NCBI GenBank assembly: GCA_017411405.1
Contig: JAFQQE010000002.1
Location: 1 to 33,674 of the forward strand
Reading direction: 5' to 3'
DNA from: Bacilli bacterium
GTDB taxonomy: Bacteria; Bacillota_I; Bacilli_A; RF39; UBA660
DNA: 33,674 nt
The position numbers and the translations under genes are program-made. The notes under the pieces are model-generated. The model was not told the DNA's origin. It ran no database searches and saw only the letters and a list, made by a program, of their open reading frames with translations. The first letter of the stretch is position 1. Every line of letters starts with the position of its first letter. Of the stretch, positions 4,905 through 33,673 are shown piece by piece.

Positions 4905-5780
4905 ATGAAATATAAAGATGAATATTTGATTTATTTAGAAAATATAAAAAAATATAGTAATAATACTGTTATTAATTATGAGTTGGATCTTAATTTGTTT
5001 GAAGAATATTTAAGGTTGAAACATAAAGATGTTATTTCTATAGAGTATAAAAATATATTAGATTTTATAGCATATTTAAAGGATGAACATAAGAGTAGTA
5101 GTATAAATAGATGTTTAAGTAGTATAAGAAGTTATTATAATTATTTAATTAAAAATAATGTTATTTCAACTAACCCTTTTAATTTGGTAAGTTCTATGAA
5201 GAAAGAAAAAAAATTACCTGAATATTTTAAATATAATGAATATGAAGAAATAATTAATAGTATAGATGTTAGTACGGATTTAGGTGTTAGAAATAAGTGT
5301 ATTTTTGAAGTTTTATTATCTACTGGATGTAGAGTTAATGAACTTGTAAATATTAAATTAAATGATGTAGATTTAAAATTATGTGAAATTAAAGTATTAG
5401 GTAAAGGTAATAAAGAAAGAATAGTATATTTAGGTAGTTATGCTATTAAAGCTATAGAAGATTATTTAAGTGTGAGAAGTAATTTATTGAATAAAAAAAG
5501 TTCAGAGTTTTTATTTTTAAATCATTTAGGTAATAAAATAACTACGAGAGGTATAAGAGATATAATTGATAAAATTTTATTAAAGTCATGTACTAATTTG
5601 AAAATTACTCCTCATACTTTTAGACATTCTTTTGCAACTATGTTATTAAATGAGGGTTGTGATTTAAAGAGCGTACAAGAATTATTGGGACATGTTTCTT
5701 TATCAACTACTAGTATTTATACTCATGTATCTAATGAAGAATTAAAAAGGGTTTATTTACATAGTAATCCTAGACAATAA
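4905..5780 (+). CDS. xerC: Tyrosine recombinase XerC-like
   Basis: 291-aa site-specific recombinase. The N-terminal SAM-like core-binding domain (about 1-95) is followed by the catalytic domain with the full set R143, K167, H237, R240, H263 and nucleophile Y272. XerC and XerD act together at dif to resolve chromosome dimers. The segment TTRGIRDI and the PR-containing tail favour XerC/CodV over XerD, whose likely partner is at 30674-31540, but an integrase of similar size cannot be excluded. It lies 7 nt behind the hydrolase gene and is closed by a terminator. It sits directly upstream of ppdK, whose 3' end shows signs of site-specific insertions. Confidence 0.85.
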   Translation: MKYKDEYLIYLENIKKYSNNTVINYELDLNLFEEYLRLKHKDVISIEYKNILDFIAYLKDEHKSSSINRCLSSIRSYYNYLIKNNVISTNPFNLVSSMKKEKKLPEYFKYNEYEEIINSIDVSTDLGVRNKCIFEVLLSTGCRVNELVNIKLNDVDLKLCEIKVLGKGNKERIVYLGSYAIKAIEDYLSVRSNLLNKKSSEFLFLNHLGNKITTRGIRDIIDKILLKSCTNLKITPHTFRHSFATMLLNEGCDLKSVQELLGHVSLSTTSIYTHVSNEELKRVYLHSNPRQ

Positions 5781-5786
5781 ATAATT

Positions 5787-5835
5787 AAAATATTGTAAAA
5801 TTGGAGCAATTCTATTGTTTACAATATTTTTTTTT
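5787..5835 (+). terminator. Terminator of xerC
   Basis: AAAATATTGTAAA (5787-5799) pairs perfectly with TTTACAATATTTT (5818-5830), followed by more T. The right arm and T-run overlap the spacer of the ppdK promoter. Confidence 0.75.
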
Positions 5836-5843
5836 GTTATACT
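5815..5843 (+). promoter_or_regulatory. ppdK promoter
   Basis: TTGTTT (5815-5820), 17-bp spacer, TATACT (5838-5843), 28 nt before the ppdK start. The xerC terminator occupies the same bases, so incoming transcription is stopped as the new one starts. Confidence 0.55.
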
Positions 5844-5871
5844 AAAGAAGTCAAGAAAATGGAGGATGATT

Positions 5872-8511
5872 ATGACAAAATTTGTATACTCTTTTAAAGA
5901 GGGAAATGCAGACATGAGAAACCTTCTAGGTGGTAAGGGTGCTAACTTAGCAGAAATGACTAATTTAGGTTTACCTATTCCTCAAGGTTTTACAGTAACA
6001 ACTGAAGCATGTACTGATTACTATAATAATGAAAAGAAAATTAGTGAAGAAATTCAATCACAAATTTTCGAAGCAATGAAAGAATTGGAAAAGATTCAAG
6101 GGAAAACTTTTGGAGATGTTAATGATCCGTTATTAGTTTCTGTAAGAAGTGGTGCTAGAGCAAGTATGCCTGGTATGATGGATACTATTTTAAACTTAGG
6201 TTTAAATGATGAAGCTGTAGAAGGATTTGCAGCAAAAACTGGTAATGCTAGATTTGCTTATGACTCATATAGAAGATTTATTCAAATGTATTCTGATGTA
6301 GTTATGGAAGTTAATAAAAGTTTCTTTGAAAAAATTATTGATGAATTAAAAGAAGAAAAAGGTATTAAATATGATACTGAAATGACTGTTGAAGATTTAA
6401 AAGAATTAGTTTCTAAATTTAAAGCAGTATATAGTGAACATATGGATGGTGCTGAATTCCCACAAGATCCACGTGAACAATTAATGGGAGCTGTTAAAGC
6501 TGTATTTAGATCTTGGGATAACCCTAGAGCTATCGTTTATAGAAGAATGAATGATATTCCAGGAGACTGGGGAACTGCTGTAAACGTTCAAGCAATGGTA
6601 TTTGGTAATATGGGTGAAACTAGTGGAACTGGTGTTGCATTTACTCGTAATCCATCTACTGGTGAAAAAGGAATTTATGGAGAATATTTAATAAATGCAC
6701 AAGGTGAAGACGTTGTTGCTGGTGTTAGAACTCCACAACCAATTAAAAAACTTGAAGAAGATATGCCAGAAGTTTATAAAGAATTTATGGATATTGCAAC
6801 TCGTTTAGAAAATCACTATAGAGATATGCAAGATATGGAATTTACTATTCAAGAAGGAAAGTTATATTTCTTACAAACTCGTAATGGTAAAAGAACTGCC
6901 CCTGCAGCTATTCAAATTGCATGTGATTTAGTTGATGAAGGAATGATTACAAAAGAAGAGGCAATTTTAAGAATAGAAGCTAAGAGTTTAGATCAATTAT
7001 TGCATCCAACATTTGATGCTGCTGCATTAAAAGCTGGAGAAGTAATTGGTACTGCTTTACCTGCATCTCCTGGAGCTGCTGCTGGTAAAATTGTATTTAC
7101 TGCAGAAGATGCTAAAAGAGAAGGTAAAGGTGGAAAAGGCGAAAGAGTAATCTTAGTTCGTTTAGAAACTACACCAGAAGACATTGAAGGTATGGTTGCT
7201 GCTCAAGGTATATTAACAGTTCGTGGTGGAATGACTAGCCATGCTGCAGTTGTAGCACGTGGTATGGGAACTTGTTGTGTATCTGGATGCGGTGATATTA
7301 AAATAGATGAAGAAAAGAAAGAATTTACTTTAGGTGGATATACATTTAAAGAAGGAGATTATATTTCTTTAGATGGTACAACTGGTAAAATTTATAATGG
7401 AGATATCAAAACTGTAGAAGCATCAGTATCAGGAAATTTTGGAAGAATTATGGGATGGGCTGATGACGTTAGAACATTAAAAGTTAGAACTAATGCAGAT
7501 AATCCTAGAGATACTAAACAAGCTGTAGAATTAGGAGCAGAAGGTATCGGATTATGTAGAACAGAACACATGTTTTTTGATGAAGTTAGAATTCCAAAAA
7601 TTAGAAAGATGATTTTATCTGAAACAGTAGAAGCTAGAGAAGAAGCTTTAAATGAATTAATTCCATTCCAAAAAGCTGATTTCAAGGCTATGTATAAAGA
7701 ATTAAAAGGATTACCAATGACAGTTCGTTATTTAGATCCTCCTCTACATGAGTTCTTACCAACATTAGAAGAAGATATTAAGGCTTTAGCTAGTGAAATG
7801 GGTGTAACTGTAGAACATTTAAAGAACAAATGTGCTGAATTACATGAATTTAACCCAATGATGGGACATAGAGGATGTCGTTTAGCTGTTACTTATCCAG
7901 AAATAGCTAAAATGCAAACTCGTGCTTTAATGGAAGCTGCTATTGAAGTAAAAGAAGAAGACGGATATGATATTGTTCCAGAAATTATGATTCCATTAGT
8001 AGGGGAAAAGAAAGAATTAAAATTTGTTAAAGATATAGTTATTGAAACTGCTGAAAAAGTTAAGGCTGAAAAGAATTCTGATATTGAATATCATATAGGT
8101 ACAATGATCGAAATTCCTAGAGCTGCACTTTTAGCAGATGAAATTGCTACTGAAGCTGAATTCTTCTCATTTGGAACAAACGATTTAACTCAAATGACAT
8201 TTGGTTTCTCTAGAGATGACGCTGGAAAATTCTTAGATGCTTATTATCAAAATAAGATTTATGAATCTGATCCATTTGCAAAATTAGATCAAAATGGTGT
8301 TGGAAAACTTGTTGAAATGGCTGCTAAAAAAGGTCGTGAAACAAGAAAAGATATTAAACTTGGTATATGTGGTGAACATGGTGGAGAACCTGCAAGTGTT
8401 GAATTCTGTCATAAAGTAGGTCTTTCATATGTATCTTGTAGTCCATTTAGAGTTCCAATTGCAAGATTGGCTGCTGCTCAAGCTGCCCTACGCGATAAGG
8501 AGAACAAATAG
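5872..8511 (+). CDS. ppdK: Pyruvate, phosphate dikinase
   Basis: 879-aa cytosolic enzyme interconverting pyruvate + ATP + Pi and phosphoenolpyruvate + AMP + PPi. In organisms of this type it usually serves PPi-linked glycolysis or gluconeogenesis. Domain order is canonical: an N-terminal ATP-grasp domain (LLGGKGANLAEM; SVRSGARASMPGMMDT), the central phosphohistidine domain with GGMTSHAAVVARGMG (His457 is the phosphate carrier), and the C-terminal PEP/pyruvate TIM barrel, with Cys in GICGEHGGEP as general acid. The length equals that of characterised bacterial PPDKs (about 875 aa). ATG 5872 is supported by GGAGG six bases upstream. More G/C-rich codons than the neighbours suggest high expression. 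The last 33 bases plus the terminator are duplicated at 10503-10730. Confidence 0.98.
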   Translation: MTKFVYSFKEGNADMRNLLGGKGANLAEMTNLGLPIPQGFTVTTEACTDYYNNEKKISEEIQSQIFEAMKELEKIQGKTFGDVNDPLLVSVRSGARASMPGMMDTILNLGLNDEAVEGFAAKTGNARFAYDSYRRFIQMYSDVVMEVNKSFFEKIIDELKEEKGIKYDTEMTVEDLKELVSKFKAVYSEHMDGAEFPQDPREQLMGAVKAVFRSWDNPRAIVYRRMNDIPGDWGTAVNVQAMVFGNMGETSGTGVAFTRNPSTGEKGIYGEYLINAQGEDVVAGVRTPQPIKKLEEDMPEVYKEFMDIATRLENHYRDMQDMEFTIQEGKLYFLQTRNGKRTAPAAIQIACDLVDEGMITKEEAILRIEAKSLDQLLHPTFDAAALKAGEVIGTALPASPGAAAGKIVFTAEDAKREGKGGKGERVILVRLETTPEDIEGMVAAQGILTVRGGMTSHAAVVARGMGTCCVSGCGDIKIDEEKKEFTLGGYTFKEGDYISLDGTTGKIYNGDIKTVEASVSGNFGRIMGWADDVRTLKVRTNADNPRDTKQAVELGAEGIGLCRTEHMFFDEVRIPKIRKMILSETVEAREEALNELIPFQKADFKAMYKELKGLPMTVRYLDPPLHEFLPTLEEDIKALASEMGVTVEHLKNKCAELHEFNPMMGHRGCRLAVTYPEIAKMQTRALMEAAIEVKEEDGYDIVPEIMIPLVGEKKELKFVKDIVIETAEKVKAEKNSDIEYHIGTMIEIPRAALLADEIATEAEFFSFGTNDLTQMTFGFSRDDAGKFLDAYYQNKIYESDPFAKLDQNGVGKLVEMAAKKGRETRKDIKLGICGEHGGEPASVEFCHKVGLSYVSCSPFRVPIARLAAAQAALRDKENK

Positions 8512-8706
8512 TCCGCATTAGCGTACCTATTTAACCCTTATAAATAAAGGGATTGAGTAAAACTCATTAAATTAAAATAAAAGTAATAATAATCTATAAA
8601 AATAGATAAAATTACATTAATTAGACCAAGATTTTAAAAATCTTGGTCTTTTTTTGATAAAAATGGCATTTTTTGCGACAAAATTTGAGCGTTAAAAAAA
8701 TGCGAT
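8479..8706 (+). repeat. ppdK tail repeat, copy 1 (native)
   Basis: 228-bp segment starting in the ppdK codons for Gln-Ala-Ala-Leu and covering stop, terminator and flank. It matches 10503-10730 base for base with no gap and five mismatches by my count (about 98%). Confidence 0.95.
8623..8655 (+). terminator. ppdK terminator
   Basis: AGACCAAGAT pairs with ATCTTGGTCT (8623-8649), followed by T7. It lies 112 nt after the stop. The intervening stretch has only small hairpins (CCCTT/AAAGGG, GAGT/ACTC) and no gene. Confidence 0.85.
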
Positions 8707-8729
8707 ATTTTGATATAGTGGTTAAAGTA

Positions 8730-8758
8730 TTGTATTTTTTATATAAGTAGTGTATAAT
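8730..8758 (+). promoter_or_regulatory. Promoter of the macro-domain-like gene
   Basis: TTGTAT (8730-8735), 17-bp spacer, TATAAT (8753-8758). It begins 24 bp outside the ppdK tail repeat, so it belongs to the cargo gene. Confidence 0.6.
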
Positions 8759-8786
8759 AACCTATCAAACAAGGGAGGTTGTATGT

Positions 8787-9263
8787 ATGGTAGTTAAAAC
8801 AGTACAAGATGATATATTTAACTCTGAAGCAAAACATATTGCTTTTGCAGTTAATACAGAAGGATATAATGATGCAGGGTTTGCAGGACAAGTATCAAGT
8901 AAATATTGGAATGAGTTAGCAAATTGTGGTTTACATGAAATAGGTACAGTTTTATCAAAGAAAGTGGGAGATAAAACTTTTCATGCTTTGGTTTGTCATT
9001 CATTAGAAAATGGTTGGGGAGAAAATCAAGCAGAGGTTATAAAAGAATGCTTTGACAAAATACCTGCAAATGGAGAACCTGTTGCAACAATCGCTATTGG
9101 TACAGGTTTTGTAGGAATGATGAGTGGAGCAAATTTTAGACAAATAGTTTGTGGAATGCATGATTCAGAGCAACAAATTTTGTTACATGCTGGTTATACT
9201 TTAGAGGCTGTTATTAATTGTTATAATGAAGAAAAAGGAAAAACTAAAACTAAAAAAAGATAA
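8787..9263 (+). CDS. Macro-domain-like protein
   Basis: 158-aa cytosolic protein. The segment AFAVNTEGYNDAGFAGQVSS (residues 20-39) resembles the macro-domain ADP-ribose loop (V-N-T-x-G-x-M-G-x-G-x-A-x-x), and VATIAIGTGFVGMM (about 99-112) resembles the later glycine-rich loop. Macro domains bind or remove ADP-ribose; the small DarG/TARG1 type reverses DNA or protein ADP-ribosylation. Asp replaces the usual Met-Gly, so the assignment is tentative and activity is uncertain. A Lys/Thr-rich tail follows. ATG 8787 is used because the ATG at 8783 stops after four codons and GGGAGG is correctly spaced for 8787. It has its own promoter and terminator, as an independent cargo gene behind ppdK. Confidence 0.5.
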   Translation: MVVKTVQDDIFNSEAKHIAFAVNTEGYNDAGFAGQVSSKYWNELANCGLHEIGTVLSKKVGDKTFHALVCHSLENGWGENQAEVIKECFDKIPANGEPVATIAIGTGFVGMMSGANFRQIVCGMHDSEQQILLHAGYTLEAVINCYNEEKGKTKTKKR

Positions 9264-9332
9264 ATTATTTTTAATATTACAAAAATGAAAATTTAACTTA
9301 AATAAATTAATGAAACAAAATAGTTTAAAATA

Positions 9333-9359
9333 GAACTAAGGCTAAGTCTTAGTTCTTTT
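9333..9359 (+). terminator. Terminator after macro-domain-like gene
   Basis: GAACTAAG/CTTAGTTC stem with 7-nt loop and TTTT. Sequence and flank (TTTAAAATAGAA) resemble the terminator at 12311-12340, suggesting common origin. Confidence 0.7.
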
Positions 9360-9389
9360 GTTATTTATAAAAAGAAAGGAAGTGAATTT

Positions 9390-9467
9390 ATGCAATATAT
9401 TTATTTAAAACCACAATTAAAAAATTTATGCTATAATATTAATGCGAAGTGGGGGAATTTTGTATGA
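9390..9467 (+). CDS. 25-codon mini-ORF, probably a gene remnant
   Basis: ATG 9390 has a good RBS (AAAGGAAGTGA) and reads 25 codons to a TGA that overlaps the next start as ATGA. The second half is the promoter DNA of the next gene read as codons, so it is more likely the 5' end of a lost gene joined to the next cassette than a designed leader peptide. Confidence 0.3.
   Translation: MQYIYLKPQLKNLCYNINAKWGNFV
9426..9444 (+). promoter_or_regulatory. Extended -10 promoter block, copy 1
   Basis: TTATGCTATAATATTAATG contains TGCTATAAT. An almost identical block (one change) precedes the 11306 gene. Confidence 0.65.
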
Positions 9468-10435
9468 ATAAATTTGAATTAGATAAAACAATGGAAAGTT
9501 TTGGCTTTGATAAGAAAGAGTGTTATGAGATTTATGGTTGTAAATATTATCATGATGGTAGATACTTTACTATTGTTAATGGAAAGACTCCAAAAGAATT
9601 AGCAAAATTAATAAAAGTAAAATATGATAATAATAAATATAAAATTAGAGTGGAAGGTAATCATGAAGATTATGAGCCAACTGGTGATGTATATACTTAT
9701 CATATTGATACTATTGAAGGATTAGTAGCATATTTAATTGAAACAAAAAATTATTATTCTAAAATTCAAACCAATCCTGATGAATTAGAAAATATTTTAG
9801 ATTTAATTTATAAAAAAATATTAGAAAATGTTAATCCTCAATTGAATATTTATGATTGGATGTTAGATAGAGATAACAGAAAAGAATATTTCAAGAGAGT
9901 ATTATCAAATAATACTTATTTAGATTTTAAATTAAGAAAACAAATAGAACTTTTTGATAGTATGGTAAATCCTTTTGCTAATAATCATTGTGATATAAAT
10001 AATAGTAAATTTATCGTTCGTGGTTATGGTTATGAAGAAGATGAAAGTTGGTTTACACTTACTGATAAAGAAAGTGGAATAGTATTTTCAACTATAAGAA
10101 GCAAAGATGGTTTTGTTTTGAAATTACATATTCCAACTGAAGTTCCATATGAGATTGATGTATATCATTATTTTGATAAGAACGGAGAAGAAATTGCTTT
10201 TGAAAAATATGATGAATCTGATTTAACAAGGATTGAATATAATTTAAGAGATGAAACTTTTGGTGAACATTATGGTGAAAAACATAAAGCAACAACAAAT
10301 GATAAAAAGTTTGTTATAAATACTTTAGACGAATACATAACATTGGCAAGAAGTATTGTTGCTAAAAATATTTGTACGAAACCTAATAATATGGGAATAG
10401 TTTTGAAAAAAACTAGAAAACCTGAAGCAAAATAA
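9464..10435 (+). CDS. Hypothetical accessory protein
   Basis: 323-aa protein that I do not recognise. It is acidic and aromatic-rich, with repeated Tyr/Asp/Glu clusters and mixed alpha/beta prediction. There is no signal peptide, no membrane segment and no catalytic motif that I can name. The ATG at 9464 is chosen because GGGGGA precedes it by 7-8 bases; an upstream GTG at 9449 in the same frame lies in the RBS itself. The gene has an extended -10 promoter. It is followed 17 nt later by a repeat shared with 12214-12273 and then by the second ppdK tail, so it looks like the last cargo gene of one insertion. Confidence 0.65.
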   Translation: MNKFELDKTMESFGFDKKECYEIYGCKYYHDGRYFTIVNGKTPKELAKLIKVKYDNNKYKIRVEGNHEDYEPTGDVYTYHIDTIEGLVAYLIETKNYYSKIQTNPDELENILDLIYKKILENVNPQLNIYDWMLDRDNRKEYFKRVLSNNTYLDFKLRKQIELFDSMVNPFANNHCDINNSKFIVRGYGYEEDESWFTLTDKESGIVFSTIRSKDGFVLKLHIPTEVPYEIDVYHYFDKNGEEIAFEKYDESDLTRIEYNLRDETFGEHYGEKHKATTNDKKFVINTLDEYITLARSIVAKNICTKPNNMGIVLKKTRKPEAK

Positions 10436-10452
10436 TATAATGTTAATCATAG

Positions 10453-10510
10453 TTAAATTATATTATCTTCAATAAAGTTGCCCCTCTAACTTGATGGTGG
10501 TACAAGCTGC
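10453..10510 (+). repeat. Gene-trailing repeat, copy 1
   Basis: 58-bp unit nearly identical to 12214-12273; the last 33 bp (10478-10510) are identical. It contains TTGCCCCTCTAACTT, whose ends form AAGTT-8 nt-AACTT, and ends in CAAGCTGC, the same octamer as in the ppdK tail. At this octamer the sequence switches into the ppdK tail copy. Confidence 0.9.
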
Positions 10511-10730
10511 TCTACGCGATAAGGAGAACAAATAGTCCGCATTAGCGTACCTATTTAACCCTTATAAATAAAGGGATTGAGTAAAACTCATTAAATTAAA
10601 ATAAAAGTAATAATAATCTATAAAAATAGATAAAATTACATTAATTAGACTAAGATTTTAAAAATCTTGGTCTTTTTTTGATAAAAATGGCGTTTTTTGC
10701 GACAAAATTTTAGTGTTAAAAAAATGCGAT
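10503..10730 (+). repeat. ppdK tail repeat, copy 2
   Basis: Matches 8479-8706 without gaps. Includes the last codons (QAALRDKENK), the stop and the terminator. There is no ppdK coding sequence upstream of CAAGCTGC here, so it is a displaced 3' end. Confidence 0.95.
10647..10679 (+). terminator. Duplicated ppdK terminator
   Basis: Copy of the ppdK terminator. One C-to-T change in the left arm is tolerated as a U:G pair, so it should still function. Confidence 0.75.
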
Positions 10731-10776
10731 TTTATATATTGCAATAAAAGATAAAAATGTTTAATCAAAATGTTAA

Positions 10777-11097
10777 ATAAGTTATTTACTAAAAGGAGTA
10801 GGAGAAGATTTAATTGTTAAAGCTGGAAAAAAAGGTACGGGGTTAAATGATCGGATTTGGATTGGAAAAGCAGTTATAAACGTTTGTGTATTAGCTGGTA
10901 AAGCTGGTAGAAATGGTAATGGAATAATAGGGTTAAGCTCTTTAGTATATAATAACTTTATAGAGAAATTAAAAGAAAAAAAATCAGATGCGTTAAATTG
11001 GTTCACACAAAAATATGATTATGATTTGAACGATACGACATATTATTGTAATGTTATTAATTCTGAATTCGATGAATGGGTTGATAATAATTTATAA
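10777..11097 (+). pseudogene. 5'-truncated class III nucleotidyl cyclase-like remnant
   Basis: An open frame of 106 codons has no ATG, GTG or TTG start. The translation includes GEDLIVKAGKKGTGLND, RIWIGKAVINVCVLAGKAG and GLSSLVYNNFIEKL, which resembles the C-terminal part of class III adenylate/guanylate cyclase domains (G-x-A-V-N-x-A-x-x-L followed by I-x-x-S-x-x-x-Y). The ending Y-Y-C-N-V-I-N-S-E-F-D-E-W resembles, from memory, cyclases of Pycsar-type phage defence. The N-terminal catalytic half is missing; the break lies at the end of the duplicated ppdK tail (10730). GGAG motifs at 10795-10804 could support an ATT start at 10813, but a short active protein is unlikely. Confidence 0.5.
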
Positions 11098-11157
11098 ATA
11101 ATCTTCTATAATAAATTTAGTTATAAATTTAATTAAATAATATAAATATGGAATAAA

Positions 11158-11201
11158 CTTAATAAAATTTGCCCCTCTAACTTTATCGTTATACCTGTTA
11201 C
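11158..11201 (+). repeat. Gene-trailing repeat, diverged copy 2
   Basis: Shares TTGCCCCTCTAACTT (11169-11183) exactly with the other two copies; the following 18 bases match at about ten positions. It starts 72 nt after the cyclase-like stop codon, the same distance as copy 3 from its gene. Confidence 0.7.
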
Positions 11202-11269
11202 TTAAAAAATAAAGAAAAGTACGGCAAAAAATGTGTTTATATTGTATTAAATATAAAAATATTAATAAC

Positions 11270-11288
11270 TTATGTTATAATATTAATG
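11270..11288 (+). promoter_or_regulatory. Extended -10 promoter block, copy 2
   Basis: TTATGTTATAATATTAATG contains TGTTATAAT. It differs from 9426-9444 at one base; both precede accessory genes. Confidence 0.65.
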
Positions 11289-11305
11289 AAATTGGAGGTT
11301 TTGTT

Positions 11306-12169
11306 ATGGCAAAATGGCTTGAAAAATTATTTAAATCGAACAAAAAACAAGAAGAAATAGTAAGTGAGGAATTTATAGTTGAAAACAAACCAGCTAAAAT
11401 TACTAATTTAACTCAATATAGATTAGAGTTAGATGAAGGTACAACTGATTTTGATTTTAGTGAACTAGATGTAACTTACGAAGATATCCAAAATATTAAC
11501 TTAGAAAATTTAAATTTAAACATTAATTTAAGAGAGGTTTTTGTACCATTTAATGGCAGTTGTAAATTTGGGAATAATATTCTATCTTCAGTATTTAATA
11601 CATACCGTGGTGATTATTTTTTAAAACTTCAAAATTCAAGATTAGGTGGAAATAATGTAACAGGAGATTTAACATTATTTGAAGGAGATTCACACACTAG
11701 ACCAGTATATGTATGGTATAGTGAAGAAACTTTTGATGATAACTATAAATCTCAATATCCACAATTCTTTTTATCAAAGGATGCACCTGAAGAATTGCGT
11801 GAAAAATATTATAATCCTAAAATAATTTATGAAGAGGTTGTTGATCCTGTAGCGGTAATTCATGATTTGGAAGAAAAAAACAAAAAAGTTAAAAGTCTTG
11901 TAAGACAAACTTTAACTCTTGATGAATATTTGAAATATTATAAATTTTTAAAAGGAAAATATTTAGGGAATTTTTCTATTAGTAAGCAGGATTTACTACA
12001 AATTGAAATAATTGAAAAGTATGGTATAGAACAAAGAGATGCAATTTTAGAACATATCAATAATATGATGAATAATATAAATCAAACTGCAGATTGTGAA
12101 AATTATACTATAAATGAAGCCGATGACAAAGGTGTAACTTTAACTTTAAAACTTAAATTTAAAAAATAA
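11306..12169 (+). CDS. Hypothetical accessory protein
   Basis: 287-aa protein of unknown function. After a basic N-terminus (MAKWLEKLFKSNKKQ) there is a beta-rich, Leu/Asn-rich central part (about 50-125: NLENLNLNIN, RLGGNNVTGDL) with a pentapeptide-like or beta-solenoid look. Next comes a segment TFDDNYKSQYPQFFLSKDAP that I associate, without proof, with hypothetical proteins of gut Firmicutes. The C-terminal third is helical and charged. ATG 11306 has GGAGG seven bases upstream; longer in-frame starts such as 11231 run through the promoter. It is trailed by repeat copy 3 at 72 nt. Confidence 0.65.
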   Translation: MAKWLEKLFKSNKKQEEIVSEEFIVENKPAKITNLTQYRLELDEGTTDFDFSELDVTYEDIQNINLENLNLNINLREVFVPFNGSCKFGNNILSSVFNTYRGDYFLKLQNSRLGGNNVTGDLTLFEGDSHTRPVYVWYSEETFDDNYKSQYPQFFLSKDAPEELREKYYNPKIIYEEVVDPVAVIHDLEEKNKKVKSLVRQTLTLDEYLKYYKFLKGKYLGNFSISKQDLLQIEIIEKYGIEQRDAILEHINNMMNNINQTADCENYTINEADDKGVTLTLKLKFKK

Positions 12170-12213
12170 GATATAAAATATTTATGTGAAAAAATATTGT
12201 AACTTAATGGAAA

Positions 12214-12273
12214 GTTAAGTTATATTATCTTCATTAAAAGTTGCCCCTCTAACTTGATGGTGGTACAAGCTGC
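12214..12273 (+). repeat. Gene-trailing repeat, copy 3
   Basis: About 60 bp, two substitutions and one indel relative to copy 1 in the left part and 33 bp identical on the right (12241-12273). Ends with the same CAAGCTGC. Confidence 0.9.
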
Positions 12274-12295
12274 ATTAAAGTCTGGTATGCAATAA
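12266..12295 (+). pseudogene. Possible displaced ppdK 3' end
   Basis: From CAAGCTGC the frame reads Q-A-A-L-K-S-G-M-Q-stop. PPDK proteins end in a conserved L-A-A-A-Q-A-A-L followed by a variable tail, so this may be the original or an older ppdK end, pushed away by insertions. Ten codons are too few for certainty. Confidence 0.35.
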
Positions 12296-12310
12296 AAGTA
12301 ATTTAAAATA

Positions 12311-12340
12311 GAATTAAGATTTACTCTTAGTTCTTTTTTT
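12311..12340 (+). terminator. Terminator at the distal end of the accessory region
   Basis: GAATTAAGA/TCTTAGTTC stem with one T:G pair, 5-nt loop and T7. Related in sequence to the terminator at 9333-9359. Confidence 0.75.
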
Positions 12341-12438
12341 ATGATGAATTATATTTGCTTAATAACTATTGATAAAATAATAGTTTGATTAATTATTATA
12401 AAAGTGATAAACTTATATTAGATTATAAGGAGGATAAA

Positions 12439-30027: not shown

Positions 30028-30681
30028 ATGATTTATACTTGTAGTTATAAAAATTTTAAAACAAATTTATATAAAGGATGTAGTATATCAGGAGATAAGT
30101 GGGGAAGAGCAGGTTGGAAGGGTAATTCTTATTCGTTACTTGCTCCTAAAAAGAAATTTTTGACGATATGGCATAATAATAAAGAAATTATTAGTGAAAA
30201 CGAAAACAACGAATATTATATTGAAGAATATTATAAACAAGTATTGTCTAAACTTGATCCTGAAGAAACATACAGAAAGTTAGATGGTAATTTTTTATTA
30301 TGTTTTGAAGATAATGGAGAATTTTGTCATAGACATATTGTTGCTGCTTGGCTAGAATTGTTCTTAGATAATAAAGTTAATGAAGTTAAAGTAGATGGTT
30401 TAGCTATAACTTATTTAGATAGTCCTGGTTATATTAAAGAAGTGTTAGAAAAAGTAATTAAGAATAATACAAATATGAGAGGATTTAATAGCCTAAGGGC
30501 TTTATATTTGTTCGAGATGAGCGAAAAATTTGAAAACGAAGCCGATATAATGGAAGAAAAATTTGAAAAAAGTTATGGCCATTTAAGACAAGCTGCTGCT
30601 TATTTAAGAAGTGAAGCTGATATGATTGAAGATGATTATAGGGTAAAAAAATTGGTTAAAAGAAGTGGAAATAATGAATGA
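30028..30681 (+). CDS. DUF488 family protein
   Basis: 217-aa protein. The first 130 residues match DUF488: MIYTCSYKNFK, SISGDKWG, then LLCFEDNGEFCHRHIVAAWL (about 90-109) with the characteristic C92 and C100-H-R. DUF488 proteins have no settled function; the conserved Cys/His/Arg group suggests nucleic-acid or metal binding. The extra C-terminal 80 residues are helical and charged. The stop codon overlaps the xerD start by 8 bp, so xerD is translated from the same transcript. The RBS is AGGAAGTGG. Confidence 0.8.
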   Translation: MIYTCSYKNFKTNLYKGCSISGDKWGRAGWKGNSYSLLAPKKKFLTIWHNNKEIISENENNEYYIEEYYKQVLSKLDPEETYRKLDGNFLLCFEDNGEFCHRHIVAAWLELFLDNKVNEVKVDGLAITYLDSPGYIKEVLEKVIKNNTNMRGFNSLRALYLFEMSEKFENEADIMEEKFEKSYGHLRQAAAYLRSEADMIEDDYRVKKLVKRSGNNE

Positions 30682-31540
30682 TATTTATATTAGTGAATTT
30701 TTAGTTTATTTAGAAATGGATTTAAATTATTCTAAGAATACTATTTCAACTTATGAAAATAGTTTGAATCAATTATCAAAATATGTAAAAAAAGACTTAT
30801 TAAAATTAAACAGTAAAGATATAGAAAAATTTTTAAGTGATTTAGAATTAGAAGCGAGTAGTATAAGTAATTATTTAAGTGCTTATAAAACGTTTTATAA
30901 TTATAATATAAAGAATGGTAATATAAAAGATAATCCAACTGACTTAATAGATACTCCTAAATTGTCTAGACATTTACCTACATATTTAACTGTAGAAGAA
31001 ATTGATAAACTATTAGATATTGATGTAATAGATGCATTTAGTGCTAGAAATAAGTCTTTATTAGAACTTTTATATTCAAGTGGTTTAAGAATTAGTGAAC
31101 TTATTGGTTTAGAGTTTAAAAATATTGATTTAAATGATTGCATAATTAGAGTAATGGGGAAGGGGAGTAAAGAAAGAATTGTTCCAATTAGTGATATTGC
31201 TATTAAGTATTTGAAAATATATGTAAAAGACTATAGACATTTACTAGTTAAAAATGAACAAAATAATTTTATTTATTTAAATAATCATGGCAAAAAGATG
31301 ACTAGACAAGGTGTATTTAAAATGTTAAAAAAATTATCGTTATTAAAAGGTATAAAAAAAGATGTATCTCCTCATACATTGAGACACTCTATCGCTACTC
31401 ATATGTTAGAAAATGGTGCTGATTTAAGGATTATTCAAGAATTTTTAGGACATACAGATATTGGAACTACTCAAATATATACTCATTTAACTAATGAAAA
31501 ATTAAAAAATGATTTTATGGAATATTTTCCTAGAAACTAA
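30674..31540 (+). CDS. xerD: Tyrosine recombinase XerD
   Basis: 288-aa site-specific recombinase with an N-terminal core-binding domain (about 1-95) and all catalytic residues: R139, K163, H234, R237, H260, nucleophile Y269. GLRISELIGLEF and the RVMGKGSKERIVPI segment are close to XerD. With XerC (4905-5780) it should resolve chromosome dimers at dif. The start at 30674 overlaps the DUF488 gene by 8 bp; a GTG at 30665 in frame lies within the RBS region. A convergent terminator follows. Confidence 0.88.
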   Translation: MNDIYISEFLVYLEMDLNYSKNTISTYENSLNQLSKYVKKDLLKLNSKDIEKFLSDLELEASSISNYLSAYKTFYNYNIKNGNIKDNPTDLIDTPKLSRHLPTYLTVEEIDKLLDIDVIDAFSARNKSLLELLYSSGLRISELIGLEFKNIDLNDCIIRVMGKGSKERIVPISDIAIKYLKIYVKDYRHLLVKNEQNNFIYLNNHGKKMTRQGVFKMLKKLSLLKGIKKDVSPHTLRHSIATHMLENGADLRIIQEFLGHTDIGTTQIYTHLTNEKLKNDFMEYFPRN

Positions 31541-33511: not shown

Positions 33512-33673
33512 CTAAATATAGAAGTTAACATAATATATATTATAGGAAGTACGTAGTTTTACATAAATAGATGAATAATTCTCTTTATCAACCCTATCTT
33601 TTGTTATTATTTTATCACTATCTATATAAAAATTCAAACCATCTTCAGTAAGTTGTGCATATTCAATTTTTGG
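33512..33673 (-). CDS. C-terminal end of an unknown protein, cut by the window edge
   Basis: A leftward frame of 53 codons enters from the right edge and ends at TAG (33512-33514). The visible part (EYAQLTEDGLNFYIDSDK, then RVDKENYSSIYVKLRT) looks like a beta-rich domain. No family is recognised. Confidence 0.5.
   Translation of the reverse strand, partial: PKIEYAQLTEDGLNFYIDSDKIITKDRVDKENYSSIYVKLRTSYNIYYVNFYI

Follow-up and report, generated by a model that had tools for sequence, protein, structure and literature searches.

The 3′ end of ppdK, the gene for pyruvate phosphate dikinase, is, with a probability of about 80%, the attachment site of a cassette-chromosome-like large serine recombinase (LSR) system in which each insert rebuilds the target and the array grows. 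The window analysed here (33,674 nt of contig JAFQQE010000002.1, from an uncultured Bacilli bacterium) contains three copies of a repeat that, judged from the sequence, appears to mark gene-cassette junctions formed by successive insertions into the ppdK tail. The cassettes most likely entered through a serine recombinase akin to the one that mobilizes SCCmec, and a family of uncultured bacteria thus uses the ppdK end to collect foreign genes.

Cassette junctions behind ppdK

The repeat TTGCCCCTCTAACTT occurs as exact matches on the forward strand at 10478, 11169 and 12241, as listed in the initial annotation, and follows the stop codons at 10435, 11097 and 12169 at the distances given there (43, 72 and 72 nt). 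A search of the 1.04-Mb assembly returned these three exact copies, all at the ppdK locus, plus two 2-mismatch matches on other contigs that are apparently due to chance; the repeat is thus not a genome-wide sequence that trails ordinary genes. Two copies had been described as nearly identical over about 60 bp and the middle one as diverged. Indeed, copies 1 and 3 share 37 identical nucleotides (10474–10510 and 12237–12273) and are near-identical over about 70, and copy 2 is 76% identical to them across the 37 nt.

Each copy is a junction with a 25-nt end of an element, TTGCCCCTCTAACTTGATGGTGGTA, which in copies 1 and 3 leads into a copy of the ppdK 3′ end, running from CAAGCTGC to a stop codon, to which the bases after GGTA belong; they lie outside the repeat proper. 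Copy 1 (10478–10535) consists of the left half-site TTGCCCCTCTAACTTGATGGTGGTA (10478–10502) and CAAGCTGCTCTACGCGATAAGGAGAACAAATAG (10503–10535), which translates as QAALRDKENK and a stop and is identical to the tail on ppdK itself (8479–8511); the duplication continues for about 200 bp beyond the tail (8500–8709 against 10524–10733, 98%). In copy 3 (12241–12295), the half-site (12241–12265) precedes a different ppdK-type tail (12266–12295; QAALKSGMQ and a stop), which is followed by a terminator-like inverted repeat and T run (12300–12342), as also seen behind the tails of relatives. We read this distal tail and terminator as the oldest ppdK end, the insertion target. Copy 2 (11169–11201) comprises TTGCCCCTCTAACTTTATCGTTATA and then CCTGTTAC (11194–11201), which occupies the place of the ppdK tail and, in the ppdK frame, reads PVT...stop, an ending absent from all ppdK genes fetched. 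The same replacement of CAAGCTGC by CCTGTTAC, at 11194 in the window, recurs in two other genera, at +3830 (L025) and +431 (L026) from the ppdK stop in oriented loci, and across these three genera it is confined to junctions behind the GCCCCTCTAACTT half-site type. The proposal of one conserved site behind each gene, as in a cassette array, holds for the array; the site itself pairs a half-site with a replacement ppdK tail and is not a single conserved unit.

All target and cassette features lie on the forward strand. The ppdK gene (5815–8511; Pfam PEP-utilizers_C, PPDK_N and PEP-utilizers) ends in an attL-like left junction (8479–8511), at which the tail, CAAGCTGCCCTACGCGATAAGGAGAACAAATAG, would come from the first cassette: the tail and about 250 bp are 95–97% identical to another genus, compared with 80% for ppdK itself. 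Cassette A (8479–10502; 2,024 bp) extends from the ppdK tail to the left half-site of copy 1, limits that agree with a 210-nt direct repeat spaced 2,024 bp apart. It carries open reading frames of 158 aa (8787–9263) and 328 aa (9449–10435) and, in between, the decayed start of a helix-turn-helix (HTH) 'leader' gene (9258–9430; MQYIYLKPQL...), recognized by gapped alignment with the leader region of another genome (G140), to which it is near-identical over its first ~85 nt; in other genera this leader stands behind ppdK. Cassette B (10503–11193; 691 bp) runs from the ppdK tail to copy 2 and has an open reading frame of about 93 aa (10816–11097), and cassette C (11194–12265; 1,072 bp), between copies 2 and 3, encodes a 312-aa protein (11231–12169). 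The 158-, 328- and 312-aa proteins had no match in Pfam, NCBIfam or PADLOC, and Rfam detected a tRNA and nothing else in the window. The three cassettes contain cargo genes only, with no recombinase gene among them. On this anatomy, the repeats of the window would be products of serial insertion into the ppdK 3′ end.

Arrays and cassette exchange across the family

We surveyed ppdK and the ~12 kb behind it in about 60 genomes of the family (63 loci). In nearly all loci, the ppdK product terminates in AAAQA and a variable tail, and tail copies or junctions lie downstream in 20 of the 63. Scanning ~540 kb downstream of ppdK with a tail matrix gave 43 matches on the ppdK strand versus 6 on the opposite strand; some matches of score 12–17 inside coding genes were discarded by eye. 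Between sites there are one to four genes, all in ppdK orientation, most of which end 50–150 nt ahead of the site; the 25–45 nt that precede CAAGC differ between sites and group into recurring types. The richest array, in G039, has seven sites and cassettes that include a deaminase, a GNAT acetyltransferase, a PP-loop ATPase, an HTH/KilA-N pair and others. Across 18 array genomes, a tail-core pattern matched mainly on ppdK contigs, with a few matches elsewhere. In 13 of 62 loci, the gene immediately after ppdK is a conserved HTH leader, often followed by a ParB-domain gene. A literature search, incomplete in its coverage, found no paper that describes ppdK as an insertion site.

Several elements of relatives deserve mention in their own right. 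In G107 (L278, 17909–17965), a 55-bp unit of ppdK tail and short half-site stands in tandem and free of genes, as a minimal empty cassette. An HTH/KilA-N cassette (L147, 6346–7442, reverse strand) encodes a KilA-N protein that matches the PADLOC candidate defence family PDC-S22 (4.5e-114). In G119 (L148, 8039–10545, reverse strand), three adjacent tyrosine recombinase genes resemble a RIT element.

The half-site of the window also occurs in three other metagenome-assembled genomes (MAGs) of the genome collection, from three other genera, where it again precedes either a ppdK-type tail or CCTGTTAC. Two of these have it on the ppdK contig, downstream of the gene, and in the third a ppdK-type tail comes after it. 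Among GTDB genome contigs, a scan hit these three MAGs alone (labelled Bacilli or Tenericutes), and neither the half-site nor the LSR described below was found in the viral_contigs set. Recurrence in other genera, together with the ppdK survey, shows that the repeat is not part of one long segmental duplication. It also bears out the suggestion that the repeat is a recombination site of a non-integron system, since such sites recur at ppdK behind unrelated genes in several genera. For several genus pairs, sequence from CAAGC onward is 87–97% identical and ppdK only 72–80%; examples are G140 and the window (97% over 256 bp; ppdK 80%) and G122 and G114 (96% over 345 bp; ppdK 77%). These alignments show lateral exchange of cassettes between lineages, with the breakpoint at CAAGC.

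Serine recombinases beside junctions of the same kind

Most inserts at ppdK encode no recombinase, and LSRs of this Pfam family are absent from the assemblies of seven array-bearing genomes. For that reason we initially set aside a role for an LSR, and many arrays may indeed be relics. The leader behind ppdK, however, hinted at larger elements, of which two bear conjugation genes, and the role was reinstated because the leader elements of G002 and G039 carry an LSR, which in G002 lies 84 bp ahead of the distal junction. Three LSRs inside ppdK-linked elements form one subfamily (65–79% identical, compared with at most 42% for the other LSRs compared), and a search of 386 genomes identified 27 carriers. 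When LSR loci were fetched with more flank (a set that leaves out truncated matches and more distant relatives of 35–43% identity, except one in G249), a ppdK-tail site followed the LSR in 20 of 20, in the same orientation and at 23 to ~2,100 bp. At the level of the family, a protein with Resolvase (PF00239) and Recombinase (PF07508) domains therefore adjoins the junction, as in LSR elements generally. Seven of these loci have ppdK, the HTH leader, cargo, the LSR and the site on one contig. In the original flanks, 12 of 22 subfamily LSRs had a ppdK-tail site versus 0 of the 19 LSRs from outside the subfamily, which had shorter flanks (Fisher p = 9e-5).

The nearest NCBIfam model is CcrB (E = 6e-45; 153.9 bits against a cut-off of 900), followed by CcrC (120.5 bits; cut-off 900) and CcrA (59.4 bits; cut-off 700), all well below threshold, and the best match among solved structures is 3g13, a putative conjugative-transposon recombinase. 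The conjugation genes behind ppdK, in G120 (L112 and L186) and G107 (L100 and L185), include a VirD4-type coupling protein, a MobL relaxase and a VirB4-like ATPase; these elements are ICE-like and share the same target.

About ten LSR-less cassettes of relatives match an LSR-adjacent left half-site (scores ~27–34 versus a shuffled mean of ~13). The window half-site gave no convincing match (15.3 versus 13.3 ± 1.5 when shuffled), and the window's own genome, which is 78% complete, contains no LSR of the subfamily. Because its half-site was not seen beside an LSR and the assembled genome has none of the subfamily, the mechanism is extended to the window's cassettes by analogy, and their half-site type would belong to the same LSR system.

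In the mechanism that we propose, an LSR related to but distinct from Ccr enzymes would recombine a circular element, at its end (left half-site P, here TTGCCCCTCTAACTTGATGGTGGTA), with ppdK at or beside CAAGC, where the codons for ...AAA meet those for QA.... The attP-like junction would pair the element's half-site with a ppdK-tail mimic, and attB would be the ppdK end. By bringing the mimic, with its stop codon and a terminator, the element would repair ppdK and regenerate the target. Owing to the likeness between mimic and ppdK tail, the junction left by an insertion would again be attB-like, making repeated insertion and the recruitment of LSR-less units possible. Newer elements would land beside ppdK and push older ones away, yielding a one-directional array. 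In some elements the LSR lies beside the right end; the rest, among them all three cassettes in the window, carry only cargo and would be moved in trans. Catalysis by the LSR and present-day activity are plausible on this evidence, as is mobility of the cassettes themselves; no circular form and no pair of empty and filled strains was seen. The window's three cassettes may currently be immobile; the leader gene in cassette A is truncated.

Known systems and alternative explanations

In SCC/SCCmec and ECC elements, a Ccr-type LSR inserts into the 3′ end of rlmH, which stays intact, and the region behind the target is split by direct repeats of the gene end, with ccr-less units known as psiSCC (PMC6222049, PMC4723332). 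The ppdK system likewise combines a Ccr-type LSR, the 3′ end of a conserved gene as target and recombinase-less units, and at ppdK direct repeats of the target end bound each unit while the gene remains intact, with copy 2 as the exception. It differs from SCC in its target, ppdK rather than rlmH; in an LSR far below the NCBIfam Ccr cut-offs, for which no CcrA-like partner was identified; in cassettes that can be single genes of <1 kb; and in highly varied left half-sites. In Dehalococcoides, tandem islands behind ssrA are bounded by repeats of its 3′ end, with a motif upstream of each; their integrase, DsiB, is a CcrB-homologous LSR of ~540 aa, the module includes a ParB-domain gene, and about half of the islands lack the module (PMC3146451). 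A CcrB-like LSR, tandem units, a ParB-domain gene and recombinase-less units are common to both systems. Unlike those islands, the ppdK elements use a protein-coding target in another phylum and have the LSR at the right (distal) end, and no second small recombinase was identified in them. As in CIMEs and ICE/IME accretion, integrase-less units with att sites are stacked beside autonomous elements; many ppdK units are, however, much smaller, down to a single gene. About ten cassettes of relatives share their sites with a recombinase-bearing element, and for the window half-site type no such match was convincing. We conclude that the ppdK system follows the same logic as SCC and the ssrA islands of Dehalococcoides, with a new target gene, and is neither SCC nor an integron.

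A broader proposal is that the system is a family-wide gene-capture platform with integron architecture, in which several LSR types, each recognizing a different left half-site, act in trans on one shared target and cassettes are still exchanged across genera; its units would be the small recombinase-less cassettes, each with a replacement ppdK tail. We regard this as a serious prospect at somewhat less than even odds. Alternatively, the arrays could be fossils of old LSR or conjugative-element insertions that now only decay and undergo homologous recombination between tails. Many array genomes without an LSR, the truncated leader gene in cassette A and tails plus terminators perhaps long enough for homologous recombination fit this account, and for the window's own cassettes it is possible. 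As a general explanation it is improbable, given cross-genus cassettes up to 97% alike and complete LSR elements in seven genomes.

It is more doubtful still that host XerC/XerD move the cassettes, with XerC acting on the ppdK end as an integron integrase acts on attI. In about 29 of 63 loci, a XerC-like gene stands a short distance ahead of ppdK (directly upstream in the window, 4905–5780), and in four array-bearing genomes the two Xers are the sole tyrosine recombinases. Yet both occur in nearly every genome searched, with or without arrays, as expected of a housekeeping pair; arrays are found in about 4 of 29 loci with xerC adjacency against 14 of 34 without it; and LSR genes, not Xer genes, adjoin the junctions. 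We thus rejected XerC as the array integrase. The chromosomal dif, ACTTCCTATAATATATATTATGTTAACT (33523–33550, reverse strand), single in the genome and ~2 kb from a XerD-like gene (30665–31540), is by inspection unlike the junctions.

A further rival, a novel integron run by a tyrosine integrase on sites that fold like attC, is scarcely credible. Integrons share with the ppdK arrays few-gene, one-directional cassettes with a site behind each gene and, presumably, entry at a fixed point. Near the arrays, however, no dedicated tyrosine integrase was found: no tyrosine recombinase lies within 12 kb downstream of the surveyed ppdK loci, and in place of an IntI the only tyrosine recombinase nearby is the XerC-like protein, present regardless of arrays. 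Xer-like integrases of 300–340 aa on other contigs lack neighbouring ppdK-tail sites; the exception is G039, where one lies ~5 kb past the array end. Folding of the sites is weak (mean z about −0.4 to −0.65), and the conserved hairpin envisaged in the initial annotation did not emerge. Half-sites are shared between LSR-less cassettes and LSR-bearing elements, ppdK cassettes start with a replacement tail and terminator, and some elements carry the recombinase, which is of the serine, not the tyrosine, class.

The ppdK end is a concrete, testable hot spot of gene acquisition for a large group of uncultured Bacilli represented here only by MAGs, and the repeated ppdK tails are a marker for automatic cassette finding in these bacteria. 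The LSRs are new serine recombinases for which candidate attachment sites are defined. The arrays suggest that serine recombinases can yield integron-like arrays when an insert regenerates its own target, a property that would link SCC, the Dehalococcoides islands and the ppdK system.
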